A stretch of DNA of 64,000 nucleotides from Candidatus Acididesulfobacter guangdongensis (lineage in GTDB: Bacteria; SZUA-79; Acidulodesulfobacterales; Acidulodesulfobacteraceae), in the NCBI GenBank assembly GCA_004195045.1, contig SGBC01000002.1:434001-498000 (forward strand), given 5' to 3'. Made by a program: the position numbers and the translations under genes. Position 1 is the stretch's first letter. Every line of letters begins with the position of its first letter. Below are positions 8,919 through 31,260 of this stretch, in pieces. Below the pieces are notes generated by a model. The model ran no database searches. It was not told where the DNA came from and was given only the letters and a program-made list of their open reading frames with translations.

Positions 8919-9671
8919 ATGGCTGACCTATTTGATGAGTTAAAAAATATAGATGATATTTCAATATACGGACAAAATATAGATAAATATTTTAAACCTG
9001 ATAAAAATTTATCTTTTTTTATAGCTAAAAAAGAAAAGGTCGAATATGTTTACAATGTAGTTTATCTTGAAGGAAATCCGATGACCTACCCTGAAATTGA
9101 AACTCTGCTTGAAGGAATAACAGTAGGCGGACATAGAATAAGCGATGAAATGCAGGTTTTAAACCAGAATAAATCGGTTGAATACCTATTTCACATAGTA
9201 AAAAATAACGAGTTTGAACTTGACAAAGAAACATTTTGTAAATTTAACGGCATGGTATCTTTTGAAGAATAGCTTGCATGGGGACAGTTTAGAACAGGGA
9301 ATATAAGAATAGGCGGGACTGAATATATCCCGTCGCAAGCCGAAGAATTAAACGAAATTTTTACTAACGGCATTGAAAAAATAAAGCAGATAAAGAATCC
9401 CGTAATAAGATCATTCATTTTTTTCGGATTCGGATGCAGGAACCAATTTTTCTGGGACGGGAATAAAAGGACATCGAGGCTTATGACAAACGGCATTTTG
9501 CTTTCCAACGGTTATTTTATGCTTAATATTAAAAGCAAAGATAAAAAAAAATTCAATGATACCATGCTCTATTTTTATAATACCGGTGATTATAAAAAAC
9601 TCGTCGGTTTTTTCACCGATTATTACATAGAACAAAACTTAATCTACACTAACAAATATCAAAATTCATAA
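8919..9671 (+). pseudogene. Fic-family protein interrupted by an in-frame amber codon
   Basis: One continuous frame of 250 codons encodes a Fic (AMP-transferase fold) protein but has a TAG at 9270-9272, after residue 117, between the family's N-terminal helices and the FRTGNIRIGG segment. The frame resumes unchanged after the stop and runs to a TAA at 9669-9671. The active-site loop reads NQFFWDGNKRTSR where active Fic enzymes have HPFxxGNGR, so the catalytic histidine is replaced by glutamine as well. A good ribosome binding site (GAGGAG-like) precedes the ATG. Most likely a decayed Fic gene; amber readthrough or a sequencing error are alternatives. Confidence 0.75.
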
Positions 9672-10139: not shown

Positions 10140-10188
<49 letters not shown>

Positions 10189-10232
10189 AATAGCAGTTTA
10201 CAAAGCTTTCATTGATAAAGATTTACAGGCTA

Positions 10233-10775: not shown

Positions 10776-13253
10776 TCAATTAACAAAATATTCGCTTAAG
10801 TCCTCGACTTCTTTTAACGGAGTTCTTTTCTTGTAGTGTTCTACGTAGTCTTTAAACCAGTCTTCTCCGCCTTTAAGTTTTACCGCTTTCGCAAGACGCC
10901 TTGCGTATTCGTCGGACTGAATAAGGGAAGTGATGTTTTCGTCTAAGCTAAGCTGCGCCATGCGGGTTATGTTTTCCTGCTTGATAAGATAATCCCTTTG
11001 GGGCGTTCCTTTCACGACCATTTCGAATTCGTTTTCCGTAAGACCGAATGTATTGATATAGAGGTTTTTCATATCGGTCGTATCCGCTTTGTAATTCGGC
11101 AAAAATATTTTAGTAGATACGTTAGTAAGAACGCTTGAGAGCATTTTTTGATTTTCTGCCACGTGCATAGGGTCTTGAGTTGCAAATACTACTATTGTGT
11201 TTAATTTGCGTAAAGTCTGAAGCCATTCCTGCATTTTGCCCGCAAAAATCGGATGCTGAAGTTCGAACCAGGATTCGTCTAAAATAATTATTGTAGGAAT
11301 TAAAGAAGTCAAAGAAGAATCTATTCTTTCGAAAAGATACATTAATAAAGGCGGTATTACTTTAGAATTGTTATCCCCGCTTAAGTTTTTCATCTCGAAA
11401 ACGGTATATTTCGATAAGTTAAGCATATCAACCGGATTATTAAAATAGTTTTTATATTCCCCGGTAACCCACGGACGCAATTTATCGGATAAATTAGTCG
11501 GCAGGACACTTAAAAAAGACTCGATGACGTGCTTATTTTTCGGAAGATTTGCTACAAGTTCTATAGCTTTCCACAATTGTTTTAAATCTTCGTCATCCAT
11601 AGCATATCCGAACGACTCGATTAATACCTGCAGAAAATCTCTTAAGAAGCTCTTCCCGCCTTTTTTGCTTATTAGAGAGACAGGATTTAAGTAGGTTCTT
11701 TTCTCCGGCTTAAAATCGACATGGAGTCCGTTTTGGGCTAAAGACAGAATTTCTGCGGTGTAGCCGAAGTCGAAGAAATATACCTGAGGGTCGTATTTCA
11801 TATATTGAGCCGCCAAGAAGTTTAATATGACGGATTTACCCGCGCCGGTGGGTCCGAAGATAACGGTATGTCCTACGTCTTTTACGTGAAAATTAAAGTA
11901 AAATAAGGTCTTATGTTTCGTTTCTAAAGCGCATAATGCCGGCGCTTTAAGGTAGAAGTTAAATTTATCCCCTATTAAAATAGTCCTGAAAGGGATGTAA
12001 TCGACAAAATTGCCAAGACTTACCATGAAAGAGCGGGGATTTAATTTATCTCCGCCAGGCACGGCCGAGAAATAGGCGGAAATTTTATTTAAGCTTTCCG
12101 TGAGTACTTGATATCCCCTATCTTTTAATACACCGGTTATTTTAGCTGACGTTTCTTCCGCTTCTTTTTCCGCCTTTCCCCAAGCTATAAAATTTACGGA
12201 AGCTATTCCGAAAGGCCGCACCAAGTCGAGTTCCTGCATAGCTTCTTCGGTGTCGTAAACGTAGCTCATTTTAGTGGGATCTATTAATTTAGTTTCTTCG
12301 CCTGTGGCGGTTTCGGATGCTTGATGAAGAAGACTTTTTCTCGTTACGAAATAATGTCTTCTTCTTTTTTTCATCAAGCTTTTAGCTTTTTCTTTAGAAA
12401 GAAAAGAAAACGAACAGGAAAATTTTAGTTCTTTATCTAAAGAAAGGAGCCCGTCTAATACGCCGGGATAAGTTTCCTGAGGATAGTCTTTTACGCTTAA
12501 AACTTTATATACCGAAGAATCTAATTTGATAGCTTCTTCGTAGTCTGCGTCAACGGTGAAATCCGTTAAATATTCGTCTAAGAAAGCGTAGTCCGGAAGC
12601 CTTATCCCCCCCTGCCTTAAGTCTTGCGCCGGATTAACTACAAAATAGTAAGCAGCAAGAAGTTCTTCGTCTTTAAGCCTTTCAAGTCCTAATTTCGGTA
12701 AAGATTCGGCAATACCTTCTAATTCTTTATTTATAAGTCTCAATCTTTCTTTAAGCTCTTTAATAACGTCTTCTTTAGTCTTTTTTTCGCTTAAAGATTT
12801 AACTTTCTCCGTTATCTTTTTCCCGTCTCTTTCGAAAACTTTCTTGAATATTTTTAATTTCGATCTATTTTCCCTGTAGATAAAAGATATATAAATATTA
12901 TTTACGTAGTTTTTATTCCTTAAAACCCTTTCTTTATATTTTTCATCTATATATTTAGAAACCGAAGACTTAAATTCTATATCAGGATAGTAGTAATTTC
13001 TTTTTCTTATCAAAAAAAACGAGACTGTCCAGTTCTCGCCAAGTCCTTTTAGCGCGTCTTCAAGCCTGTCGGCATAGTAACTGATAAAATCGCTTCCGAA
13101 TGTTTCGGAATCAATTCCTCTTACTTTATAAAGCGCGCATAAGCCTTCGTCTTTCAGTCTTATTACGTCAGGGTTCGCCAAAGAAAATATCGGAAGAAGT
13201 TCAGATACTGACGGCTTTAAGTTCGCTTTCGTATATTTTTTTAAGTCTATCAT
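10776..13253 (-). CDS. VirB4/TrbE-type conjugation ATPase (orphan)
   Basis: An 825-residue type IV secretion ATPase of the CagE/TrbE/VirB4 family, which energises pilus assembly and substrate transfer at the inner membrane. The N-terminal half is the family's variable domain; the C-terminal RecA-like half has Walker A GPTGAGKSV at about residues 463-471, Walker B IIILDES near 652 and the downstream FATQDP segment. No other VirB components sit beside it, and a different complete VirB4 is encoded at 45370, so this is probably a relic of another conjugation system. It overlaps the upstream small gene by 4 bases and is followed by the antitoxin copy. Confidence 0.88.
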   Translation of the reverse strand: MIDLKKYTKANLKPSVSELLPIFSLANPDVIRLKDEGLCALYKVRGIDSETFGSDFISYYADRLEDALKGLGENWTVSFFLIRKRNYYYPDIEFKSSVSKYIDEKYKERVLRNKNYVNNIYISFIYRENRSKLKIFKKVFERDGKKITEKVKSLSEKKTKEDVIKELKERLRLINKELEGIAESLPKLGLERLKDEELLAAYYFVVNPAQDLRQGGIRLPDYAFLDEYLTDFTVDADYEEAIKLDSSVYKVLSVKDYPQETYPGVLDGLLSLDKELKFSCSFSFLSKEKAKSLMKKRRRHYFVTRKSLLHQASETATGEETKLIDPTKMSYVYDTEEAMQELDLVRPFGIASVNFIAWGKAEKEAEETSAKITGVLKDRGYQVLTESLNKISAYFSAVPGGDKLNPRSFMVSLGNFVDYIPFRTILIGDKFNFYLKAPALCALETKHKTLFYFNFHVKDVGHTVIFGPTGAGKSVILNFLAAQYMKYDPQVYFFDFGYTAEILSLAQNGLHVDFKPEKRTYLNPVSLISKKGGKSFLRDFLQVLIESFGYAMDDEDLKQLWKAIELVANLPKNKHVIESFLSVLPTNLSDKLRPWVTGEYKNYFNNPVDMLNLSKYTVFEMKNLSGDNNSKVIPPLLMYLFERIDSSLTSLIPTIIILDESWFELQHPIFAGKMQEWLQTLRKLNTIVVFATQDPMHVAENQKMLSSVLTNVSTKIFLPNYKADTTDMKNLYINTFGLTENEFEMVVKGTPQRDYLIKQENITRMAQLSLDENITSLIQSDEYARRLAKAVKLKGGEDWFKDYVEHYKKRTPLKEVEDLSEYFVN

Positions 13254-13636: not shown

Positions 13637-14035
13637 TGCAAGTATAGGCGATTTTTATTACAACATCAATTTAAAAGGTAATCGTTATGAAAAAAAATGA
13701 CATTCAAAATGAACTTAGCATTGAAGAAAAGAAAAAAATTCTATTATCGGCGATAGAAGGCGCTCATCCGGCTAAAAAAAAAGAAGCTCTCTTAATTCCG
13801 TTTATTCCGGAAATTAAATTAATGCTCGAAAAGAAAATGTCTTTGAGCGCACAATTAAAAGCTCTAAATTCTATCGGAATCAAAATTGCGTATAAGACGT
13901 ATAAAAGTTTTTTGGATATGCTTCTTATACTGCACCCATTTGTCAAGACCAATTTTTTATTTTATTACTTCCTTCTTTTAATTCTTTTTTATTATCATTT
14001 TAATTATTAATTATTATTTATTTTTATTAGTATAA

Positions 14036-14059
14036 TTTAAAGGGGGTACCCCCTTTAAA
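14036..14059 (-). terminator. Perfect palindrome at the end of the IS transposase
   Basis: A 24-bp perfect palindrome, TTTAAAGGGGG then its complement, sits 5 bases beyond the transposase stop. The GC-rich hairpin in very AT-rich DNA, followed by A/T runs on both sides, fits a factor-independent terminator or a barrier against outside transcription. Confidence 0.55.
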
Positions 14060-14064
14060 AAATT

Positions 14065-15210
14065 TTATGCCGCTTTTTCAAAATATTCACTATAAAATTT
14101 TAGCGGCGGTTTATATCCCAAAGATGAATGAAGCCTGTGATTGTTGTATTGATGCATGAAAGCGTCAATACCGTCATGCGCTTCTTTTATCGTTAAATAT
14201 CCCGAAGGATAGATATTATCGTATTTTATAGTTTTCCAAAATCTTTCGATAAATATATTATCTAACGCTCTGCCTTTAGAATCCATTGAAATAGATATCT
14301 TATGATTTACTAAAATATTAATGAAGTTTTGAGCCGTATATTGCGAACCCTGGTCTGAATTAAATATTTCAGGATTTCCGTATTTATGTATAGCATCATT
14401 TAATACATTAATAGTAAGTCTTTCGTCCATAATAGGAGATAGTCTCCACGACAGAATACTTCTTGTATAAAGGTCAATTATAGCGCATAGATAAACAAAG
14501 CCGTGATTTAATCGTATATACGTTATATCGGACGCCCATACCTGATTGGGTTTAGTTACTTTAAGTCCTTTCAGGAGATACGGATACTTTTCATGAGTTG
14601 CGTCAGGCATTGAAGTGTTTTTCTTTTTTACCGGATACAGCGCTTTAATGCCCAGTATTTTCATATAACTTAATATTTGCTTAGGATTAGTGTCTTTGCC
14701 TTCCTGAATTAAAGTATGATACATGCGGCGGTATCCGTAATACGGAAATTCCGTATATATTTCATCTAACCTGTTTAATATAATTTGATCTAATAATTTT
14801 TCAGCATGTTCGTAATAGATTGTAGTTCTATTTAATTTTAACAGCTGGCACTGCCTTGTAATAGACAACGGGAGCTCAGGTTCTACAAGGCTTAATTTGT
14901 CAATCAAGCCCAAGCTCCCTACTTTTTTTTGCAGCCAGTCTCGTTCCATTACAGTTCTGCCTAAAGTTTTTTCTAAGTTTTCTATTTTTTCTTCTTTTTC
15001 TTTTAGTTCGTCTTTGTATTTCTTAGAAGATACTGAGTCTTCGTAAATAGCGGAAGCATTCTCAAAGAATTGCTTCCTCCATACCTGAACGCTTTTAGGC
15101 AGTATTTTATATTGAATGGCTATTTCATTAGTCGTCTTGCCTGATTCTAATAGTTCTAAGACAACTTTAGCCTTAAAATCAGGAGAAAACTTTCTGTGGT
15201 TTGTGCTCAT
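14065..15210 (-). CDS. IS3-family transposase, single open frame
   Basis: A 381-residue DDE transposase. Residues 1-60 form the OrfA-type helix-turn-helix (KFSPDFKAKVVLELLESG ... LPKSVQVWRKQF), followed by a leucine-zipper-like coiled coil (about 65-95), the HTH_21 region (FPYYGYRRMYHTL) and the rve catalytic core with ASDITYI (first D), NSDQGSQY (second D) and FIERFWKTIK (E). IS3 relatives usually split OrfA and OrfB by a -1 frameshift; here they are one continuous frame, as in a minority of the family. The GC hairpin just downstream may end its transcript. Confidence 0.92.
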   Translation of the reverse strand: MSTNHRKFSPDFKAKVVLELLESGKTTNEIAIQYKILPKSVQVWRKQFFENASAIYEDSVSSKKYKDELKEKEEKIENLEKTLGRTVMERDWLQKKVGSLGLIDKLSLVEPELPLSITRQCQLLKLNRTTIYYEHAEKLLDQIILNRLDEIYTEFPYYGYRRMYHTLIQEGKDTNPKQILSYMKILGIKALYPVKKKNTSMPDATHEKYPYLLKGLKVTKPNQVWASDITYIRLNHGFVYLCAIIDLYTRSILSWRLSPIMDERLTINVLNDAIHKYGNPEIFNSDQGSQYTAQNFINILVNHKISISMDSKGRALDNIFIERFWKTIKYDNIYPSGYLTIKEAHDGIDAFMHQYNNHRLHSSLGYKPPLKFYSEYFEKAA

Positions 15211-15652
15211 TATAACGCTCCTATGTTTAATTATAATTATTATTTTAATTATATTTAAATTTATTATTTTAAATTTGCTAATTTTTTAATCTTTTTATTA
15301 TTTTTCTTATTAGCTGATAGTAATAAATTTTAACAGATTTTTATAATTATTGTAATTGCGGAAGTTCAATTTTAAAAAAGCTGTCTTAATTTATAGGTTC
15401 ATTATATCTTAAGGAATCTAAGCCCACCCCCGAAGCTAAAAAAGGCGTTAAAGAACCGGCCTCAATTGAAATTGAAAATCAGCGGAGCTCAAATATAACT
15501 ATCGTCTTAAACGACAAAGGCGACGTAAAGACTTACGCCGTCAAAGATGCTGTTAAAAAAATGGGTTTTGCCTGGGATAAGGACCGCAAAGGCTGGAAAA
15601 AAGAGATAAGTCAGGAAGAACTGGAAAAGGTTAAGGAACTCAAAGTAGGGTA

Positions 15653-15661
15653 TGATATAAT
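15653..15661 (+). promoter_or_regulatory. Extended -10 promoter of the AbiE-like locus
   Basis: TGATATAAT, an extended -10 box, overlaps the end of the split gene 8 bases before the antitoxin ATG. No good -35 box is present. The same TGATATAAT box stands in front of the inverted antitoxin copy at 10762-10770. The very short leader would give a nearly leaderless transcript. Confidence 0.5.
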
Positions 15662-15669
15662 ATAAGATT

Positions 15670-16077
15670 ATGGAAAAAGAAAATATAAAATATATTACCG
15701 GATTCGGCGCTTTAAATATTACCGGCGCAGACTGGCATATTTTAGGTAATATTAGAACTGGTAATTGGCCGATAAGCGGCATTGATTATGCTGACACCAC
15801 AGAACTATTCGGTAATGCCGGATTAGTTTCTTCCGGCGGTTTTTCTAAATACACAGGTGATATTAAGTGCGCGTCTCCCGCAAGAGCTATAGCCGACATG
15901 GTATATCATAACATATTTGTTCTTAAACGTTATCCAGACCATGTTATTTTTAATGATTATTTATTGGAAGACGAAGACGTTGTAGAATTTATGAAATATT
16001 TTAAGATAATGCTCGAACAAGCTCAAAATAAAGAAAATGATATGCTCTTAAGGTGGAAAAATGAATTTGTTAAATGA
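15670..16077 (+). CDS. AbiE-type antitoxin-like protein, copy 2
   Basis: A 135-residue protein, first gene of the intact toxin-antitoxin locus, overlapping the nucleotidyltransferase toxin gene by 17 bases. It is nearly identical to the product of 10336-10755, with a few substitutions and a short deletion near SKYTGDIKCASP. By position and by the usual AbiE gene order it should be the antitoxin, probably repressing its own promoter and countering the toxin, but no winged-helix motif is obvious to the eye. Confidence 0.6.
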   Translation: MEKENIKYITGFGALNITGADWHILGNIRTGNWPISGIDYADTTELFGNAGLVSSGGFSKYTGDIKCASPARAIADMVYHNIFVLKRYPDHVIFNDYLLEDEDVVEFMKYFKIMLEQAQNKENDMLLRWKNEFVK

Positions 16078-16831
16078 TAAAGAAATAATCCATTATAACT
16101 TAATGGACGCTATAACTAAAAAAATATATCAGAATAATCTTCCGCTTACTCTTAAAGGCGGTACTGCTTTATTATTCGGATATAAACTCGACAGGATGTC
16201 GTTGGATCTCGATTTTGACGCAAATAAGCATATAAACCTTGAGTCAGTTATTAAAGAATCTTTTTTATCATTTTACGGAAGTAATAAACTTATTTTAAGC
16301 AATATTAATTTAAGAAAAGATACCGATGATGTTAAAAGATATATGATAGATTATAAAAATTCATATAACAACGAAATTTTTAAACTCAAAATAGAAATGT
16401 CTTTTAGAAGAAAATTCGATAACGACGAGACAAATATAATAAATAGCAAAAGAATTTTTAAGCTACCATTTTTATTTGATTTTAAAAAAGCGGCTTTTGA
16501 AAATAGAACAGCTTCGAGAGATTTACACGATATTATTTTTATTGGCAATAAGTATGCCGCTATCCTTAATCAGGCGCAAATTGATTTTATTAAAAATATG
16601 TATAAAAACATTAACAATATAATAGACAGATATTCTGAAGCATATAAAGAAGATACAATCTTAAAAGACAGATTTGAGGAAGATATTATAATGCTTGAGC
16701 AGATTGCTACAAATAAATTTAATAGAAAGGAAAAAGGATTACCAAATCAAGAATCTCAGTCTCCTAAGCCCGACGACTTCTCTAATGATTTTCAAAATAG
16801 AATAAATAAAGGCAAAGGCTGGGATAGGTAA
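16061..16831 (+). CDS. AbiEii/AbiGii-family nucleotidyltransferase toxin
   Basis: A 256-residue protein of the COG2253/AbiEii family, toxins of type IV toxin-antitoxin and abortive-infection systems that transfer nucleotides to an RNA target. The active-site pattern is visible: LKGGTALLFGYKLDRMSLDLDFD (about residues 29-51, listed here in two parts as LKGGTALLFGYKL and DRMSLDLDFD) with the GGT loop and DLDFD acidic pair. A ribosome binding site AAGGTGG precedes the ATG within the antitoxin gene. The last residues read QNRINKGKGWDR, a tail shared with the unrelated nucleotidyltransferase at 17280. Confidence 0.85.
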   Translation: MNLLNDKEIIHYNLMDAITKKIYQNNLPLTLKGGTALLFGYKLDRMSLDLDFDANKHINLESVIKESFLSFYGSNKLILSNINLRKDTDDVKRYMIDYKNSYNNEIFKLKIEMSFRRKFDNDETNIINSKRIFKLPFLFDFKKAAFENRTASRDLHDIIFIGNKYAAILNQAQIDFIKNMYKNINNIIDRYSEAYKEDTILKDRFEEDIIMLEQIATNKFNRKEKGLPNQESQSPKPDDFSNDFQNRINKGKGWDR

Positions 16832-16842
16832 GGTATAAAATT

Positions 16843-17280
16843 ATGGAAACTTTAAAAAGCACGTCTATTTGCATTAAAAAAATACTTGAAACTTCGCAGG
16901 AAGAGTTTTATAAAAAAAACGGGCTTGATTTAAACGCCGCTAAATACTATAGCAAAGAATATAATGCATTTACTTGCATAAGAAACTTCCTTGACGATTT
17001 TTATCACTATAAAGATAATAGACAGTCTATAATTAACGAAGAACCGAATCCAACAGGAAATAATCATTTCGACGCATTTTTAGCCGCTCTCTGCGAATAT
17101 TTAGCTTATCACTATAATCTTAAGCTTCCGGACTGGGCTTTAATGCAAAACCGGTTTTTAAAAAAATGGTGGTTCCCTAATAATTATAATTTTATGATTC
17201 CTACATGCTTAATGCAGTCTCCGGCTTCTTTTAAGCGCAGAGGTATTTTTATAGACGATTCTTTTTTTCAGAGGGTATAA
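16843..17280 (+). CDS. Hypothetical protein paired with DUF6036-type nucleotidyltransferase
   Basis: A 145-residue soluble protein with no recognised domain. It is rich in aromatic residues (ALCEYLAYHYNLKLPDWAL, KKWWFPNNYNF). Its stop codon overlaps the start of the nucleotidyltransferase gene by one base (TAATG), the tight coupling typical of toxin-antitoxin or modifier pairs. It starts 11 bases after the AbiEii-like toxin, so all four genes may form one operon closed by the hairpin at 17914. Confidence 0.55.
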   Translation: METLKSTSICIKKILETSQEEFYKKNGLDLNAAKYYSKEYNAFTCIRNFLDDFYHYKDNRQSIINEEPNPTGNNHFDAFLAALCEYLAYHYNLKLPDWALMQNRFLKKWWFPNNYNFMIPTCLMQSPASFKRRGIFIDDSFFQRV

Positions 17281-17870
17281 TGACTAAGGAAACGATAATT
17301 AAAGCTTTTAAAAGACTGTCAGATTTATTAGCTAAACAAGAAAAGCAAGCGGAAATCTATATTGTAGGCGGCGCAGCGATGATATTAGCATATAACGCAA
17401 GAACTACTACGAAGGATATAGACGCTATCTTTACGAATAAAGATATTATCTATAAAATTTCAAAGCAGGTTGCGGATGAAATGGGACTTGAAGAATACTG
17501 GATTAACGATGCGGCTAAAAGTTTTATACCTGCAAAAAAAGATGATAATTCTATCCCGATAATCGATGAAAAAAATTTAAAGGTTATGGCAGCGTCGGAA
17601 GAATATATGCTTGCAATGAAACTACTTGCTTCAAGAATGGAAGATAAGCCCGATATCGAATTCTTATTAAATAAACTCAATATCAAGTCTGCCGAAGACG
17701 CTCTTTATGTCGTTAGAGATTTATATCCGGATAAATTAATTCAACCCAAAACACAATATGTATTGGAAGAAATATTCTCACAAAAAGTAGAAAAAAATAT
17801 CTCACAGCCCGACGCCTTTTCCAAGGATCTCCAAAACAGAATAAGTAAAGGCAAAGGCTGGGACAGGTAG
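17280..17870 (+). CDS. DUF6036-like nucleotidyltransferase
   Basis: A 196-residue protein of the minimal nucleotidyltransferase fold: IYIVGGAAMILAYNAR near residues 25-40 gives the GG(A) loop and TTKDIDAIF near 42-50 the acidic D-x-D pair. Such proteins are common in toxin-antitoxin-like pairs. The C-terminal tail QNRISKGKGWDR closely matches that of the AbiEii-like protein two genes upstream, although the catalytic domains are only distantly related. It is the last gene before a strong hairpin terminator. Confidence 0.7.
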   Translation: MTKETIIKAFKRLSDLLAKQEKQAEIYIVGGAAMILAYNARTTTKDIDAIFTNKDIIYKISKQVADEMGLEEYWINDAAKSFIPAKKDDNSIPIIDEKNLKVMAASEEYMLAMKLLASRMEDKPDIEFLLNKLNIKSAEDALYVVRDLYPDKLIQPKTQYVLEEIFSQKVEKNISQPDAFSKDLQNRISKGKGWDR

Positions 17871-17913
17871 TCGGCCTTTAAGCTTTTGGTTCTTCCCTTT
17901 TCCAATATAATAA

Positions 17914-17937
17914 AAAAGCCCGCACAAGCGGGCTTTT
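17914..17937. terminator. Bidirectional factor-independent terminator
   Basis: Perfect 10-bp stem AAAAGCCCGC/GCGGGCTTTT around the loop ACAA. It lies between the rightward nucleotidyltransferase operon and the leftward lipoprotein gene; T runs on both strands make it suitable for both. Confidence 0.9.
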
Positions 17938-17964
17938 CTGGTCTTTGGTCTTTAGCTTTTGGAT

Positions 17965-18412
17965 TTAATTCCCTGTCGTAAATCTCCAAATGTAATTCTT
18001 TTTAAGGTGCTGCTTTAAATTTCCCATAATTCCGGTAGTGAGCTCCGCCGTGTATTCGGTATTCGGCCTAAGAGGAACGAGCGGCGTAAAGGTTGCAATA
18101 TAGTTGGTTAAGGAATTCGGATTGTAATAAACTTTACCCGGCACTTTACGGCCGTCCGGACCGATTAATAAAAACGTGCTGCGGTTAAAAGATAAAGAAT
18201 TAAGCGCTTCGTTAAAAGAAGCTTTCACAACGACGTTTGTGGGAACGTTCACGGCGCCGTTTGCGGGACTTACTAAACTGATTTTAACGGGATAAAAAAC
18301 GCCGGCGGGGATAATTCCAAGAACTCTGTCCGGAGCGCAGCCGGACATTGCCGGCATAGCAACAAGGATTAAAGCGAATAAAAGCAGTAAATAGATTTTC
18401 TTTTTTTTTCAT
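17965..18412 (-). pseudogene. Ig-like (SbsA/Big_5) lipoprotein with a frameshifted A9 tract at the start
   Basis: The mature region is one Ig-like domain of the SbsA/Big_5 type: VSPANGAVNVPTNVVVKASF then the FTPLVPLRPNTEYTAELTTG block, ending in WRFTTGN. A good AGGAGG site precedes ATG at 18412-18410, but nine A follow immediately and put that ATG one base out of frame. With eight A the protein would begin MKKKKIYLLLLFALILVA and reach the lipobox MSGC, a textbook lipoprotein signal. As read, only an internal ATG at 18357 gives the frame and lacks most of the signal. Either a frameshift, a homopolymer sequencing error, or on/off phase variation. Confidence 0.7.
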
Positions 18413-18458
18413 AATGACCTCCTGGGTTAATTTAAAATAATTTTAACATAATTTAAAA

Positions 18459-18800
18459 TTATTTTCTCCACTCGCCAATCCCGTCCCACTCAATAGTCAA
18501 ATAATCGCTTATAACATTACGCCTAAAATAATCATCAGTCGAATTTACTATGCTATAAAATACATTTTGCATAGTTTTTAAATCGTTAGGCTGTATCTGC
18601 CGTGCAAATTGCCTTATTACTTCATATGCAATATTTACATCAGGATACTTCTTTTCCCATTCGCTGAAAAAAGGAGGTCTATCACCGCTAAGTTCTGCTT
18701 GTCTTACTGCCTCCCTATATCCAGTTTCAATTTCAACAAAAAAATCAATTGCTTCGTCTAACTTTTTTCTCGTTACTACACCACCACTATAAATAAACAT
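18459..18800 (-). CDS. Hypothetical protein
   Basis: A 113-residue soluble, acidic protein of no recognised family; it contains YREAVRQAELSGDRPPFFSEW and ends in WDGIGEWRK. It has a good ribosome binding site (AAGGAGGCAC) and follows the coupling-protein gene by 37 bases on the same strand, so it is probably the last gene of the leftward operon. Confidence 0.5.
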   Translation of the reverse strand: MFIYSGGVVTRKKLDEAIDFFVEIETGYREAVRQAELSGDRPPFFSEWEKKYPDVNIAYEVIRQFARQIQPNDLKTMQNVFYSIVNSTDDYFRRNVISDYLTIEWDGIGEWRK

Positions 18801-18837: not shown

Positions 18838-20622
18838 TTAAATCCCTTTTAATTTTCTCTCAACAATATGTTTCTCCGGTTCTTCAGGTTCTTGTTTCTC
18901 TGTATTCGCCGATTTTATTTCTTCGACTTTATCTGCGACTTCAGTATTATCAAGTATTTTTTGACTTTCATTATTTTTGTTCTCTGATTTTGGTATAACA
19001 AGCCTGTTAGAACTAATTAAGCCTTCATTAATTTTGTTATATGTTTGGTGAATAATATAAATATGCATAAAATAAGGTATATTAACCAATTTAACAATTG
19101 CTTCTAAATCAGGCCAATTCAAGATTTGAGACGGCAAAAATAACTTTTTTTCGACCACTTGGGTTGATTTTGAATGTGTATATTTTTCATCTGTCACAGA
19201 ATCACTTGCGCTTGTACGTTCTACCTCTTGCGATCCAATTTGTCTGCTAACATATTCAGCCTCATCATTATTATTGACTCTTAAATATATCGCGCTATTA
19301 CAACTATTCATCATATTCATAGTTAAATCATGCCCATACACAAATTCAGTTTTAGCTTTATCTTGAATTCCAACAATAACAGAAGCGTTTTTCGAGCGCC
19401 CCTTATCAAGCAAATCCATTATACCAGGTGTTTTATCAAAATTCGAAAGTTCGTCGAATAAAAACAAAGTCGGCGTATTCTCACCGTCTGGAGCAGATAG
19501 GAATTTCTTAATTAACAGCTCCATAAAAATTTTCATTATAGGTTTAACGAATATCTCTGAATTTTTATCTAAATTGAAAAATATCCTAGTTTTTCTTTTC
19601 TTTAAAAAATCCTTCGTTATATTAAAAGTTTTCATTCCTTCTTTGTCAGGCTTCGAGGGCATAATAGTAAAAGCTTTTAAATAGCGTGAGATTTCGGTCA
19701 TCATCGACTTCACTTCGTCCGACTGCAGCGGAGTTATAGCCATAATGCACTGTTTTTCTACTTCAGGATCAGACTTGAATAGCTTTAATAAATCTTCAGG
19801 CGTTTTACTTGCAAGCCTGATCAAGTTTTCATTAGTACCTAAATTTTTCATTTTTAGATACATAATCATTGCTTCAAGAATATGCCTCGCATTTGTTATA
19901 AAAAAACCGTTCGGGTTACTCGTATCTGATTCCGGAATGAGTACTTCGGCAAGCGTTGCGGCGTCCGCTTTATTTTCAATTTCGTCTAATATATTCCATG
20001 CGGGACATCTGTCGTCCGCTGGATTAAAAATTATATCGTATTTAGGATTATAAAAGACCGGTACGAAGTCTTTTTTGCTGTCATAGATAATAGCGTTGTA
20101 ATCCAATCTATTGTAACTATCGAAAAGTATTTTTGAAATAATCTGCGTCTTACCTGAACCAGTAGCTCCTAACACAAGAATATTTCTATAAATAATTTTC
20201 ATAGTCAGCGGCACATCTCCAATAGTACAAAACACATCGTTATAATCAACCGTTTTTTTGTACTTTTTAACACTCTCCATGGTAGAGCCTCGTATGATTT
20301 TTTCGTTTTTATTTTCATTAACCGGATCGCCGGAACTGTTCTTTAGAACTAAATAAACAGCAGGTATTAGCAATAAATCGACAAGCAGAGAATATAACAA
20401 CGGGGTTTTAAAATTTAAATCTTTTAACACTAATCCCCAATTGATTTCTTTTAAAGGATAATGTTCTTTAACTAATGTTTTTAGAACCGTATAGATTTTA
20501 TAATTAACTTTATACAGCATAAAAAAATAAAAGATAAACTGCACGAATAAAATACCTTCTATTACCCATTTCAATACAGATTTAGTCTGCTGTATTTTTA
20601 TCCTGATGTCCTGAAACTTCAT
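18838..20622 (-). CDS. Type IV coupling protein (TraD/VirD4 family)
   Basis: The coupling protein brings the relaxase-DNA complex to the secretion channel. Two membrane segments lie at residues 12-35 and 55-75, then the cytoplasmic motor: Walker A GATGSGKTQ at about residue 150 and Walker B LFLFDELSNF near 345, followed by KNASVIVGIQDKAK. The C-terminal 60 residues are charged and Glu-rich. ATG at 20622 is chosen over an ATG further upstream (20703) because GGAG stands 10 bases before it and the protein then begins just ahead of the first membrane segment. It overlaps the upstream small gene by 41 bases. Confidence 0.9.
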   Translation of the reverse strand: MKFQDIRIKIQQTKSVLKWVIEGILFVQFIFYFFMLYKVNYKIYTVLKTLVKEHYPLKEINWGLVLKDLNFKTPLLYSLLVDLLLIPAVYLVLKNSSGDPVNENKNEKIIRGSTMESVKKYKKTVDYNDVFCTIGDVPLTMKIIYRNILVLGATGSGKTQIISKILFDSYNRLDYNAIIYDSKKDFVPVFYNPKYDIIFNPADDRCPAWNILDEIENKADAATLAEVLIPESDTSNPNGFFITNARHILEAMIMYLKMKNLGTNENLIRLASKTPEDLLKLFKSDPEVEKQCIMAITPLQSDEVKSMMTEISRYLKAFTIMPSKPDKEGMKTFNITKDFLKKRKTRIFFNLDKNSEIFVKPIMKIFMELLIKKFLSAPDGENTPTLFLFDELSNFDKTPGIMDLLDKGRSKNASVIVGIQDKAKTEFVYGHDLTMNMMNSCNSAIYLRVNNNDEAEYVSRQIGSQEVERTSASDSVTDEKYTHSKSTQVVEKKLFLPSQILNWPDLEAIVKLVNIPYFMHIYIIHQTYNKINEGLISSNRLVIPKSENKNNESQKILDNTEVADKVEEIKSANTEKQEPEEPEKHIVERKLKGI

Positions 20623-20836
20623 CTTTTTTCTCCGTATTAACGTTATATTGATACTTATTTGCCACGCTAAGAAGTTCGTTTTTAAATTGCTCATAATTTT
20701 CAAATCTGTTATCGAAAAACCGCCGCGTAATTTTTCCGAAATCGCTATTTAAATCTTCTTTTAGAATTTTGTTTTCCAATGCTTTAAAATGTTTAATTTT
20801 TTCGCGGATAACTTTTAAATCTTTACTTTCTTTCAT
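20582..20836 (-). CDS. Small charged protein between accessory and coupling proteins
   Basis: An 84-residue highly charged, probably helical protein (KVIREKIKHFKALENKILK, then RRFFDNRFENYEQF). It overlaps the RHH-type gene by 4 bases upstream and the coupling-protein gene by 41 bases downstream, so the three are translated as a unit. No family recognised; position suggests a relaxosome or coupling accessory. Confidence 0.55.
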   Translation of the reverse strand: MKESKDLKVIREKIKHFKALENKILKEDLNSDFGKITRRFFDNRFENYEQFKNELLSVANKYQYNVNTEKKDEVSGHQDKNTAD

Positions 20837-21681: not shown

Positions 21682-24630
21682 TTATATTTGTTTTCGGGAA
21701 ATTTTTTTGCTTTCCGCCGGTTTTTCCCTTGAAAAAGTTTTTTCCTTTTTCTCAGTTTTCGGCTTTTGAAATTCTTTTCTTAAATTCTCCCTTTCGAATG
21801 TTTCTTTAAGCTCTTTTATAGACGGAATAGATGTATCTATTTTTTTCATTTGATTCAAGATATTTTCGACGATTGAATAATTTTTATAGTTTCTATTTTC
21901 GAATGTTATACTATCAACTTGTCTATCATCTTTTAACGCGGTCTTAAATAATAATGTTTTATCCATAGTGAAGATTTCTATATTTTGTTTCGCCCGCGAA
22001 ACGTTTACATAAAATTCGTTTTTAGTCGTTCTGTCGGAATATATATAAACCTTTTCGGCCGTCTGTCCCTGCGACTTATAACTCGTGATTGCATAGCCGT
22101 GAGTGAAATAATTATAATCTTTCGTTTCAAAATTAACAGTCTTACCTTTCCCGATATCGACTTCGATTTTATAATTATCGTTTCCTAAACTTTCGATATT
22201 TTTAATCAAGCCGCTAAGACCGTTTTGCACCCCGTATTCTTTTTTATCTAATCCATTATTTACAACTTCTATATGGTAATCGTTTTTCAGAAAAATAATT
22301 TTATCCCCTTTTGAAAATTTCCTTTCGGCTTCGATATAAACTTGATTGGCTTTTAATTTATTTCCGGACATTAAAATCTCTTGTCCGGAAAACTTATCCA
22401 CGGCAATTACTGATTTATTTTCGAAATCGACGTTTTTGATTTCATAAGTATGTTTACCTCTAAGAACTATATCCCCCTTTTCATAATTCCAAAAATTTTT
22501 CTTATCTTCATCCCCTATATTTTTCCCTTCCCTGATTTTCATTTGAAAATCTTCTTTAGCTATCGCGCCGGCATTTTTTAATTTTTCCCTGGTAATCTTA
22601 TTGAGCTCATATCTGTCTTTATTCTGCGACGAGAGAATAAAATTTTCCAAATTACCTTCTTTAACGAAAGCGTCGGTTATGCTTTCGTATAGAACCTCTT
22701 TGTTTTCAAATACGTGAATCATATTTTTTTCGTCAAGCATTTTCATTCCGTCTTTTATTTTCCCTTTAGCGATAGTTTTAACAGCTTCTTTTAAAAAAAG
22801 GTCGGTCTGCCTTATCGACTCGTGCATTTCGACGAACGTTACGTTTTTAGATTTTTGCAATCTTTCAAACATACCGCCTGCCTGAATTGAAGCTAACTGT
22901 TTTATATCGCCGATTAAAATAACCCTGGCGTTTTCTTTTTCCGCCAGTTCTATTACTTCCTTAATTTTCAAAGTCGCATTCATAGACGATTCATCGACTA
23001 TATATATTTTTTTACCGTTAGCGTCTGTAAACTCTTTAATATTTTTTCCTTGCAAAATATGACTATCAATCGTTTTTGAATCTATCATACTTTGCTCTAC
23101 AATCTCTTTGACGGCCTTACCTGTCGTCGATAAACCTGCCAACTGCACCCCCCTTTCTTTCGTTATTTCATGAAAGGCTTTCAAAAGCGTAGTTTTTCCG
23201 GTTCCTGCGTCTCCTTGTATCACTGTAACTCCGTTTTTTGTAGTTAATAGAGCTTCAAGTACTTTTTTCTGGTCTGCGGTCAAAGCAAAATCTTTACCTT
23301 TTTCTTTTTTGAATATTTCCGCCGCTTTCTTTTCCCATTCTCCTATTTCAGTTTTAGCCGAATTTTTTTCGACTATGCCGTCGTATTTTTCAAAAGTATT
23401 TTTAGAGAAAGACTGAATTTTTATTTCAGCCATTCTTATTTCTTTTGTAGTTAAAAAAAAACCGTCTGGATCTAATTTAACAAGTTCGCGGCGCTTAAAC
23501 ATTTCTTTAATTTTTAAATTTATATCTTCCTCGTTAAATTTCAAATCGTTATAAATCAGATGCTTCATCGCTGTAACTCTCAAATCCAGATCCGACATTT
23601 GCGCTCTATTTTCCGTCAATTTCGCCGTAGCTGATTTTAAAGCGGCGTCAATGTCGTCCGCACCGGCCAGCTTAACGCTTTTTATAACCGGCACGACATC
23701 TTTCTGCGGACTTTCTGCCTCCCATTTAGTTCTTAAATCGCTAAGAGGTACGCTTGAATCTTTTCTTTTTCTAGTTTCTAATGCTATTCTCGCTTTCACT
23801 TCCGCCTCGTTGCCGTCGGCAACGTCTTTAATTTTATCGAATTCATTTTTGATTTGCTCCGAACGTTTTGAAAACGTTTCTAGAGTCTTTTGTTCGACCC
23901 CTTCAACTTCAAAAAAGAAATTCTTATAATCAGTGACCTTAACTGAAATATCGTTCTGCCTTAATTGATTAATTTCAAGCGCCCTATAATACTCGCCAAG
24001 CCTTTTTTTATTATCAAGAATATTCCTGCCCCTAGTTTGCGGAATAGAGCGCCCTACTTCAAGCGCATATTCCTGTCCTCTTACGTATAACCTTTTTGGA
24101 ACTATAAAATGAGAATGTATATCAGGGTCTTTTTCTCTTGTATCGTGGTGCAGAAACGCCGCATATTCCATTTTTCCGGGATACACTGGGTCATAAACTT
24201 TTTTACCGCCTTCTCTGTGCGACAAGCGAGTATATGCAAGATTTTCTTCGACGTATCGCATAGCTCCGCATGCGGCGTTTTCGTGAATCTCTATCATTTT
24301 TTTTCGCAGTTGTTCGTCTTTTGTAAGTTCAATCATAACCGAAACAGATTTGGGAGCTGTAAAAGTCATATCGATAGAATCCTTTCCGTTCAAAAATTCC
24401 CTGAACGTCCTTCCGGATTTAAGCGATACATGCTTTTCGCCGGTTAGTGATGTCTTAGAAGGTTCTAATATCTGCTCTCCTACAAATTTGTTTGCAAGAC
24501 CGCCGTAGAACGTTTCAGAGTTTTGGTTCGAGTAGTATTCTTCTAATTCAAACTGTTCTTTTTCTTTTTGAAAATAATCTTCGGCAATTTTTGGAGTTAA
24601 CTTTTCATCAATACCGCCTAAAGTCAGCAT
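21682..24630 (-). CDS. traI: MOBF relaxase-helicase TraI/TrwC
   Basis: A 982-residue conjugative relaxase. The N-terminal TrwC domain has Tyr19 and Tyr32/Tyr33 in two clusters, as in TrwC, and the metal-binding triad HHD at 161-163 with HSH at 172-174 (LHHDTREKDPDIHSH). The middle and C-terminal part is a RecD2-like superfamily 1 helicase with Walker A GDAGTGKTT near 473-481, the Walker B VDESSM region and the C-terminal HGYAITSYKSQGQT. It nicks at oriT, stays covalently bound and unwinds the transferred strand. The C-terminus is Lys/Glu-rich. A clear AGGAG site precedes its ATG. The parB-like gene is 27 bases upstream. Confidence 0.95.
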   Translation of the reverse strand: MLTLGGIDEKLTPKIAEDYFQKEKEQFELEEYYSNQNSETFYGGLANKFVGEQILEPSKTSLTGEKHVSLKSGRTFREFLNGKDSIDMTFTAPKSVSVMIELTKDEQLRKKMIEIHENAACGAMRYVEENLAYTRLSHREGGKKVYDPVYPGKMEYAAFLHHDTREKDPDIHSHFIVPKRLYVRGQEYALEVGRSIPQTRGRNILDNKKRLGEYYRALEINQLRQNDISVKVTDYKNFFFEVEGVEQKTLETFSKRSEQIKNEFDKIKDVADGNEAEVKARIALETRKRKDSSVPLSDLRTKWEAESPQKDVVPVIKSVKLAGADDIDAALKSATAKLTENRAQMSDLDLRVTAMKHLIYNDLKFNEEDINLKIKEMFKRRELVKLDPDGFFLTTKEIRMAEIKIQSFSKNTFEKYDGIVEKNSAKTEIGEWEKKAAEIFKKEKGKDFALTADQKKVLEALLTTKNGVTVIQGDAGTGKTTLLKAFHEITKERGVQLAGLSTTGKAVKEIVEQSMIDSKTIDSHILQGKNIKEFTDANGKKIYIVDESSMNATLKIKEVIELAEKENARVILIGDIKQLASIQAGGMFERLQKSKNVTFVEMHESIRQTDLFLKEAVKTIAKGKIKDGMKMLDEKNMIHVFENKEVLYESITDAFVKEGNLENFILSSQNKDRYELNKITREKLKNAGAIAKEDFQMKIREGKNIGDEDKKNFWNYEKGDIVLRGKHTYEIKNVDFENKSVIAVDKFSGQEILMSGNKLKANQVYIEAERKFSKGDKIIFLKNDYHIEVVNNGLDKKEYGVQNGLSGLIKNIESLGNDNYKIEVDIGKGKTVNFETKDYNYFTHGYAITSYKSQGQTAEKVYIYSDRTTKNEFYVNVSRAKQNIEIFTMDKTLLFKTALKDDRQVDSITFENRNYKNYSIVENILNQMKKIDTSIPSIKELKETFERENLRKEFQKPKTEKKEKTFSREKPAESKKISRKQI

Positions 24631-29702: not shown

Positions 29703-29760
29703 CTAAACTCAGGGGATTCTTGATTTTTATTTAAGAGGAACATATCAATTCAAACCTCTT
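29693..29760 (-). ncRNA. Putative omega RNA / right end of the TnpB element
   Basis: On the minus strand the end of tnpB is followed by a hairpin CCCCT-GAGTTTAGGA-AGGGG, the form seen at right ends of IS200/IS605 elements. In studied members the omega RNA scaffold comes from this end and its guide is the adjacent flank, here AAGGTCAAGGGATTTTCGG from the methyltransferase remnant. The 5' limit is not visible; the extent given is approximate. Confidence 0.4.
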
Positions 29761-31260
29761 CTCTAAGATTAACTTAATAGCATATTTACTCAGCTTTTTC
29801 GGTATTAGTCTTCCGAAATTATCCAAGTTATGCAATCTTTCTCTCAAAACATTTGAAAGAAATCTATTTTTTAACATCTTTGATGAATGCAAGTCGGCAT
29901 TCTCTTTATGCCCGCAGTGTTTACATTCAAAAACTTCTTGAGTCTGCCTGTTGACTTTATCGATACTTCCGCAATCGCAGGTAATACTTGAATATTGAGA
30001 CGGCGTAATATGAACTTTAATACCTCTTTTTTCCGCCTGACGTTTCAATATATTCTTAACGTCGCTTAGACGTAACAGCTTTAAGAGACGGCCATATTTC
30101 ACATTAAATTCTTCGTTTATGACGCCTAACTTGTCTCTAAATAGCAAGTCTTCAACGACTAAATCGGTAATATTATTTTCTTCGCAATAGTTAAGGATAT
30201 TATGGATTTCTAATCCGATATACCATTGCAATTTACGGTAGAGTTTTTGCAATTTTCTAAGTTGCTTATCATTTAAGTTCTGCGCACCGATTTTATCTAA
30301 TATCAATAATTCGTTAGCAATCCCTTTGACTAAGTCTCTGTCGTAGTCAAAATATGCGCCGTCCGATAATATCGCAAAGTTGTGTTTAACGTTTATGTCT
30401 AATCCTTCGGCTTTGCTGAAAGGCTTGAATACCGGCTCCGGTTCTTCTATCGTAGCGGATATATTAATCTTATTCTGTTTAAGAGAAAGGTTTAAAACAA
30501 ATTCTTTTCCTATCCAGTCCTTGATTTTATGGTATTTATTATTGATTTGAACCGGCAGTCTTAAATATTTCTTGCCTTTCATTTTAAAGTTAAACCAATA
30601 TTTATATAGTTTATTGGTATCATCTATAAAAATATGAGCTACATTAATATTGGGTTTATTGCTTAACATTACCGACGAATATTCCGGTATTTCTATCAAT
30701 TTAACTTTAGATAAAATATTGCTTTGAATTTGCTTTGATAAATTAAGAATCCTGTCGAAATAAGGCTTAGTTTTAAAGTATTCAAAAACCGACAAGACGT
30801 CTTGATTAAGTATTTGTAATTCTAACGGCTTATTGAAATCCAAATACGCCAGATATTTTATTAATCCCGTAAGTTTAGTTGATTTAAACTTTATTTCAAA
30901 TTCTTTGGTCTCGCCTTTCTTATAAAACTTAGTATTTACTTTATATTTAACGATTATCATCTTGCTTTGTATTCTAATACGTCTGTTTTGTGTTATTTTC
31001 TTTAAAGTTGTTAAATATTTATCGATAAGCATCTGCATTTCTCTTTGAATATTCCAAGACGATATATAGCCGTCTTTGACTATCTTGTAATCCGATTTAA
31101 GTTTATTAATGCCGTCTGTATTCAAAAGTAATGCCTTATTATTAAAAATATGCAAGGATAGTGTATTCTTAATGGCTGCTATTTGCTTAAGAATGCTTTT
31201 TACATCCTCAAACTTAGATTTATTCAAATATTTTGACGTCGTTCTCTGCGCTTTAATCAT
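29731..31260 (-). CDS. tnpB: TnpB RNA-guided nuclease
   Basis: A 509-residue TnpB, longer than the usual 370-420, with an extended N-terminal half. The RuvC-like catalytic residues are in place: Asp in AEGLDINVKHN, Glu in DLVVEDLLF and Asp in KENADLHSS. The zinc finger reads TCDCG ... ECKHCG. Family members are transposon-encoded nucleases, ancestors of Cas12, that cut the empty donor site guided by an RNA from the element's right end. All key residues are present so it may be active. Confidence 0.9.
   Translation of the reverse strand: MIKAQRTTSKYLNKSKFEDVKSILKQIAAIKNTLSLHIFNNKALLLNTDGINKLKSDYKIVKDGYISSWNIQREMQMLIDKYLTTLKKITQNRRIRIQSKMIIVKYKVNTKFYKKGETKEFEIKFKSTKLTGLIKYLAYLDFNKPLELQILNQDVLSVFEYFKTKPYFDRILNLSKQIQSNILSKVKLIEIPEYSSVMLSNKPNINVAHIFIDDTNKLYKYWFNFKMKGKKYLRLPVQINNKYHKIKDWIGKEFVLNLSLKQNKINISATIEEPEPVFKPFSKAEGLDINVKHNFAILSDGAYFDYDRDLVKGIANELLILDKIGAQNLNDKQLRKLQKLYRKLQWYIGLEIHNILNYCEENNITDLVVEDLLFRDKLGVINEEFNVKYGRLLKLLRLSDVKNILKRQAEKRGIKVHITPSQYSSITCDCGSIDKVNRQTQEVFECKHCGHKENADLHSSKMLKNRFLSNVLRERLHNLDNFGRLIPKKLSKYAIKLILEKRFELICSS

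Follow-up and report, generated by a model that had tools for sequence, protein, structure and literature searches.

A toxin gene and a presumed toxin gene with a common C-terminal tail

The window analysed here is a stretch of 64,000 nucleotides from Candidatus Acididesulfobacter guangdongensis (GenBank assembly GCA_004195045.1, contig SGBC01000002.1, positions 434,001 to 498,000 of the forward strand). It carries two neighbouring two-gene modules whose second genes, an AbiEii-like nucleotidyltransferase toxin and a DUF6036 nucleotidyltransferase presumed to be a toxin, end in closely similar tails of 20 residues. The features concerned are listed below in window coordinates.

15670..16077, + strand: AbiEi-like antitoxin, first gene of the AbiE module, tailless (PADLOC AbiEi, 6.8e-13; C-terminus ...RWKNEFVK)
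16061..16831, + strand: AbiEii-like nucleotidyltransferase toxin with tail 1 (PF08843, 2.8e-10; PADLOC AbiEii, 3.8e-47)
16769..16828, + strand: tail 1, PDDFSNDFQNRINKGKGWDR, then TAA; end of the AbiEii-like open reading frame (ORF)
16843..17280, + strand: 145-aa partner gene before the DUF6036 gene, presumed antitoxin, tailless; in genomes G008, G015 and G016 an antitoxin-like gene likewise precedes a tailed DUF6036 gene
17280..17870, + strand: DUF6036 nucleotidyltransferase, presumed toxin, with tail 2 (PF19502, 4.4e-11)
17808..17867, + strand: tail 2, PDAFSKDLQNRISKGKGWDR, then TAG; end of the DUF6036 ORF

The AbiEi-like gene precedes the AbiEii-like gene and overlaps it by 17 nt, and the two have the make-up of an AbiE type IV toxin-antitoxin module. 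The 145-aa partner of the DUF6036 gene had no match in Pfam, NCBIfam or PADLOC.

A first-pass annotation of the window had proposed that the two nucleotidyltransferases share a tail while being only distantly related elsewhere, and both halves of this proposal were borne out. The final 20 residues agree at 16 positions (80% identity), the DNA coding for the two tails is 86% identical over 64 nt, and outside the tail the proteins are only distantly alike (local score 58 vs 38 +/- 6.5 for shuffles). The domain matches stop before the tail in both cases, at residues 28-221 of 256 in the AbiEii-like protein and at residues 7-134 of 196 in the DUF6036 protein (43.3 bits, cut-off 23.6). A chance match was ruled out by two observations. 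When the last 20 residues were scored for all 3160 pairs of window ORFs of at least 100 aa (mean -18), this pair reached 92, followed by two AbiEi paralogues at 70 and then by a pair at 22. Furthermore, KGKGWDR followed by a stop codon occurs twice in the 2.2-Mb genome, both times in these two genes. A third, frayed tail lies on another AbiEii of the same genome (G000:C3:315154).

Distribution of the tail

The sample comprised 30 genomes of the phylum (Acidulodesulfobacterales metagenome-assembled genomes, MAGs, mostly fragmented and all from one family), of which 15 were tail-positive by sequence and 21 by a profile whose weakest matches are at chance level. About 45 distinct tails were obtained after ORF reading, a minority of them on short stranded fragments. 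The intact carriers, assigned by Pfam, are AbiEii, DUF6036 and DUF2204-like nucleotidyltransferases, Fic, HEPN and HepT-like proteins, ArdC (ArdcN plus a zincin metallopeptidase domain) and MobA/VirD2-like relaxases, one of which is fused to a Toprim primase domain. Thus, at least eight unrelated families are tailed, including at least five toxin families.

Within these families the tail is unevenly present. It was found at 16 of 58 AbiEii loci by the profile and at 22 by a widened tail definition, and at 10 of 41 Fic loci by the profile and 9 by the widened definition, after removal of two bad calls. Two long ArdC proteins (452-454 aa) are tailed and three short ones (282-290 aa) are tailless. 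The tail as an ordinary part of the AbiEii domain was rejected, given that the domain match ends at residue 221 of 256 and that 36-42 of the 58 AbiEii loci in the phylum are tailless. The tail is not a property of its carrier families; it lies outside their ordinary domains, is absent in most relatives from the same genomes and recurs on unrelated mobile-element proteins, as the earlier suggestion of a portable signal had anticipated.

Screening about 85,000 genomes, as well as viral contigs, for the exact pattern produced no convincing match at a C-terminus beyond these MAGs, and a comparison with 72,556 plasmids gave no match, diverged tails being poorly detectable by either search. Two viral matches of the scan were discarded as an arginine-rich chance ORF. 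No description of the tail or of these elements was found in the literature covered, which mostly excludes subscription journals.

Sequence features and selection

The tail consensus is [P/E/D]-D-A-F-[ST]-x-D-L-x-N-R-L-x-K-[GS]-K-G-x-x-R, in which D2, F4 and R11 are invariant or nearly so. A second flavour ends in ...SLQNKxxxKIKFGR and a third reads DAFSEWLxKKG...GWDR, and the closing residues vary (DR, KR, GR, ER or LG). Among 19,538 ORFs, every profile match above 15 bits stops no more than 8 residues before a stop codon, and the net charge of the last 12 residues averages +3.7. The tail is therefore C-terminal, short and net positive, and signals of type IV secretion systems (T4SS) often are positively charged C-termini. 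The segment D-A-F-[ST]-x-D-L-x-N-R-L looks like an amphipathic helix, with F, L and L at i, i+4 and i+8, followed by what appears to be a flexible basic end (K-G-K-G-W-D-R or similar). AlphaFold models made without alignments were too poor to interpret, with a predicted local distance difference test (pLDDT) score of 52 for the DUF6036 protein and 55 for a tailed relaxase.

Codon positions were compared over 486 tail pairs drawn from different protein families, which gave 2481, 1492 and 462 differences at third, first and second positions, respectively. The fivefold excess of third- over second-position differences indicates that selection acts on the protein, and thus that the tail is not a non-coding repeat, which would not show such a pattern.

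Spread of the tail by recombination

Tails resemble each other by genome rather than by family. Unrelated proteins in one genome have a mean tail identity of 0.74, compared with 0.65 for one family across genomes; by genome, the contrast between tails of different families is 0.74 vs 0.64. Permutation tests of tail likeness gave p = 0.001 for genome labels and p = 0.17 for family labels. Terminal reassortment is visible at base-pair resolution in G010, in a pair of Fic genes with 94% identity over 526 nt. The first ends in the usual tail, and in the second this is replaced by a relaxase-type tail, 96% identical over 46 nt to the tail of a relaxase from that genome. The DUF6036 gene of the window and a Fic gene of G002 share DNA at 82% identity from -74 to +491 around the stop codon, upstream of which the genes are unrelated. 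An AbiEii of G005 likewise has the tail and downstream DNA in common, to +178, and the gene before differs. In many other gene pairs the similarity is limited to the coding tail and ends at the stop codon.

These patterns show that tails are exchanged by short recombination, which is probably how they spread among the 3' ends of toxin genes. In addition, two broken Fic genes have stranded tails attached to them (L188:1321-1425 and L193:1999-2127, both minus strand). At L188 the two are joined inside the Fic coding sequence where a short GATGACTTTTCC match occurs, which points to microhomology recombination.

Placement on toxins and on relaxases

In the two-gene modules that were read, the tail is on the toxin and on no adjacent partner gene. 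AbiEii and HEPN are the toxins of their respective modules. In AbiE-like pairs the nucleotidyltransferase is tailed and the preceding partner is tailless; in HEPN/MNT pairs the HEPN or HepT RNase is tailed and the nucleotidyltransferase antitoxin is tailless. Tail placement tracks toxin role and not fold, since a nucleotidyltransferase is tailed as a toxin (AbiEii) and tailless as an antitoxin (MNT). DUF6036 proteins lie downstream of a tailless partner of 126-153 aa, an arrangement in which DUF6036 would be the toxin.

The tailed proteins of about 400 aa are predicted to be MobA/VirD2-like (MOBQ/MOBP) relaxases. Their NPHxH motif is invariant, their neighbours include an integrase, a DnaB-like helicase and a small MobC-like gene, and all eight match PF03432 at E <= 0.1 (best 0.0015), sub-threshold for each member and consistent over the eight. 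Four small integrated elements (G001:C3, G010:C6, G010:C3 and G015:C13) combine a tyrosine integrase and a tailed relaxase with homologues of TrbL/VirB6 and TrbJ/VirB5, and no further T4SS genes were detected within the stretch read. As TrbL and TrbJ are the only T4SS genes detected, these elements probably use a helper system, and for a small element needing the channel of another a shared signal would make sense. The G001:C3 element also has, within 11 kb, an MNT/HEPN pair with a tailed HEPN, so that one tail type is found on both relaxase and toxin.

Two relaxase-primases of the same family (L200 in G020 and L203 in G006) have another C-terminal motif, NSPF..N.NKLKR, which may be an alternative signal but was not found on other proteins. 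The G020 ending, NSPFINITNENKLKR, was set aside as an alternative tail because no other protein carries it.

The surrounding element and proximity to T4SS genes

The tailed genes of the window occupy a cargo slot in the backbone of an element, the parts of which are listed here together with those of the transfer region beside it.

17794..18467: end of the cargo slot, comprising tail 2 and conserved backbone; the same stretch lies 3' of unrelated tailed genes elsewhere
17965-18357, - strand: Big_5 domain protein at the end of the cargo slot, within the conserved stretch 17794..18467
15430..15677, + strand: 3' part of the gene at the upstream edge of the slot; the 5' part is at 13665-13916, and an IS3-family insertion at 13926-15409 splits the gene
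10776..13253, - strand: VirB4-type T4SS ATPase of the same element backbone (PF03135, 2.2e-16)
18838..20703, - strand: TrwB/TraD-type coupling protein adjoining the tailed genes, tailless (PF10412, 4.8e-69; C-terminus ...VERKLKGI)
21682..24630, - strand: TrwC-type relaxase with helicase domain, tailless (PF08751, 3.3e-44; C-terminus ...AESKKISRKQI)

The slot lies between the small conserved gene split by the IS3-family insertion and the Big_5 domain protein, and the same edges flank other cargo in G002, G013, G016, G021 and G023. In G002 and G023 the slot adjoins genes for VirB4, TrbB/VirB11, a topoisomerase, a tailed ArdC and a MOBP-type relaxase (tailless where read, in G002), and the VirB4 region of the window is collinear with these two elements, both of which have, besides the tailed ArdC, a Fic or Fic remnant with the tail. 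The window copy of this backbone has partly decayed and lies next to a TrwB/TrwC-type transfer region, the relaxase of which is tailless.

The expectation that tailed proteins cluster on conjugative elements was examined by locating T4SS genes within 10 kb of AbiEii and Fic loci, using R388 and window queries. Under the strict tail definition, T4SS genes were near 7 of the 26 tailed loci and 6 of the 73 untailed ones (p = 0.036). Several of the untailed loci beside T4SS genes proved to bear variant tails, and under the widened rule, which was applied uniformly but is post hoc, the counts became 11/31 and 2/68 (p = 3e-5), with two unsound Fic calls (L251 and L275) counted as untailed in the final test. 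The expectation thus finds weak support in the strict test and strong support in the post hoc one, and an association of tailed toxins with T4SS genes is likely, though it is no independent proof. A genome-level TraG-type ATPase was dropped as a discriminator, being present in 29 of the 30 genomes.

A putative type IV secretion signal

Three options had been offered for the tail at first pass: a secretion or coupling-protein tag for a type IV system, an antitoxin-docking tag, and a recombination hot spot. Among them the secretion tag is the best fit, as the tail is also present on relaxases and ArdC-like proteins; that tailed proteins are translocated into recipients is something we infer. Relaxases, ArdC/TraC1-like proteins and plasmid maintenance proteins pass conjugation channels (PMC5512222, PMC8406263, PMC11288057), and delivery to the recipient may be the one functional thread common to relaxase, ArdC and toxin but not to antitoxin. 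We consider it reasonably probable that the tail acts as a portable signal for type IV secretion, short and C-terminal, which is spread by recombination and through which toxins would be delivered together with the element.

In this mechanism, the coupling protein of a P-type (Trb/VirB-like) conjugation system would recognise the tail, and the TrwB/TraD-type coupling protein of the window (18838..20703) is a candidate receptor. The elements would tag their mobilisation relaxase, their ArdC-like protein and the toxin, but not the antitoxin, of the cargo-slot module. Tagged toxins (AbiEii, DUF6036, Fic and HEPN RNase) might then reach the recipient with the DNA or ahead of it while the antitoxin stays behind, and the recipient could be pressed to express the incoming antitoxin genes, or have its metabolism or defence paused. 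More tentatively, the tail may be a phylum-wide shipping label, whereby elements recombine any toxin gene upstream of one 20-residue export tail, relaxase, anti-restriction protein and changing toxins are delivered together, and small elements ride the secretion system of another.

Several observations weigh against a secretion signal. The tail is absent from TrwC, the window's own relaxase, and from the MOBP relaxase in the G002 element (L180); it is therefore not a universal relaxase signal here, and several members of the tailed-relaxase family have other C-termini or are not readable to the end. The PF03432 matches fall below the curated cut-off. The strict proximity test is marginal, the widened definition was set after the first result had been seen, and many tailed toxins are on short contigs with no T4SS genes visible. 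A coupling-protein homologue in the P-type element of G002 (L180:2804-3628), VirD4-like and very compact (274 aa), was rejected as the tail's partner: it occurs in only 5 genomes, is broken in some of them, and its distribution does not match that of the tail.

Of the alternatives, one regards the tail as a conserved border of the slot in which cargo is exchanged, where incoming toxin genes recombine upstream of the old 3' end and retain it, and the peptide is a by-product, at most tolerated. The DNA shared beyond the stop codon by the DUF6036, Fic and AbiEii genes of G000, G002 and G005, and the stranded fragments beside broken Fic genes, are what such a footprint would leave. Exchange at the tail is visible and is probably the route of spread, so that the hot-spot option stands to this extent, but recombination accounts for spread and not for retention. 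The codon-position pattern of protein-level selection, the many gene pairs alike in the coding tail alone and the tailed relaxases and ArdC proteins outside the slot make a pure footprint unlikely. We judge just as unlikely a docking tag for a control protein shared by the element (a protease adaptor, common antitoxin or assembly factor) by which toxins and relaxases would be held inactive up to the time of transfer. One common reader would likewise produce cross-family sharing and protein-level selection, but the antitoxin partners come from several unrelated families, the variable last residues are unusual for a C-terminal degron, and no constant companion gene of the tailed genes was found in a search that was not exhaustive. 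Docking to the antitoxin in particular is disfavoured, since tailed relaxases and ArdC proteins have no antitoxin. A tag for location in the donor cell (pole, membrane or DNA-transfer complex), with toxins not exported, would suit a tail that relaxases also carry and that looks like an amphipathic helix followed by a basic end, but gives no reason for tagging toxins and not antitoxins and is very improbable.

Comparison with known secretion signals

The closest precedent for a secretion signal of this kind is VbhT of the Bartonella plasmid pVbh, a Fic toxin which acquired its BID domain from a relaxase and whose transfer into recipients was shown by a Cre assay; its authors suggest plasmid addiction beginning during transfer, and other BID-fused toxins include p1METDI FicT and a PezT-BID (PMC5675462). 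Both involve terminal reassortment by which the toxin of a module, but not the antitoxin, acquires the C-terminal signal of a conjugative relaxase for secretion, a putative one in the present case. However, BID is a folded domain, whereas the tail has about 20 residues of unrelated sequence and is found on at least five toxin families, ArdC and relaxases in one phylum, and its transfer activity is predicted. No Pfam match to BID was found in the 20 tailed proteins scanned.

In length the tail is about equal to the signal of Agrobacterium VirF, where the last 19 residues suffice (PMC10025392), and like the VirF/VirE signals it is short, basic, C-terminal and portable. The arginine motif of VirB/D4 substrates differs from the tail, whose conserved part, D-A-F-[ST]-x-D-L-x-N-R-L, precedes the basic one. 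The XVIPCD of X-T4SS effectors, with about 120 residues and a glutamine-rich end, binds VirD4 (PMC10025392) and also represents one C-terminal signal on many different antibacterial toxins. The common region here, of about 20 residues, is shorter and not glutamine-rich, and the tag is shared by relaxases, whereas the X-T4SS kills bacteria. The F-plasmid conjutome and ArdC/TraC1 offer a further likeness, in that plasmid proteins are delivered with DNA and some signals are C-terminal and basic (PMC11288057, PMC8406263, PMC5512222). In contrast, no sequence motif common to the F substrates is reported in the passages considered, and three of the chromosomal substrates of F are antitoxins, not toxins.

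Toxin-antitoxin toxins as conjugation-delivered effectors have so far been represented by a few single examples (VbhT and relatives); here a single short motif recurs on ArdC, relaxases and no fewer than five families of toxins. Conjugation substrates usually lack a consensus that can be read, and the tail makes their recognition directly testable with a 20-residue peptide. Exported cargo could also be searched for by sequence with its help. The tail further prompts the question of why a toxin should be sent by a conjugating element and its antitoxin kept back.

Other features of the element

The IS3-family element at 13926-15409, inside the slot-upstream gene, is 99.7% identical to a copy in G005, and an intact 176-aa homologue of the interrupted gene is found at L180:7578-8108. 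A Fic gene at 8919-9670 is broken by an in-frame TAG at 9271-9273 and has no tail left at its end. The segment 10275-10768 is an inverted, 91% identical copy of 15657-16138 that holds a second AbiEi and the start of an AbiEii, the body of which is gone; at the corresponding place beside VirB4 in G002:C104 there is a complete AbiE module with the second-flavour tail. Positions 10140-10190 resemble a tRNA-Met gene in its 3' half and may be what is left of an attachment site; no complete tRNA was found in the window by ARAGORN. Within the element region, 29731-31260 encodes a TnpB/Cas12f1-like protein (PF07282).
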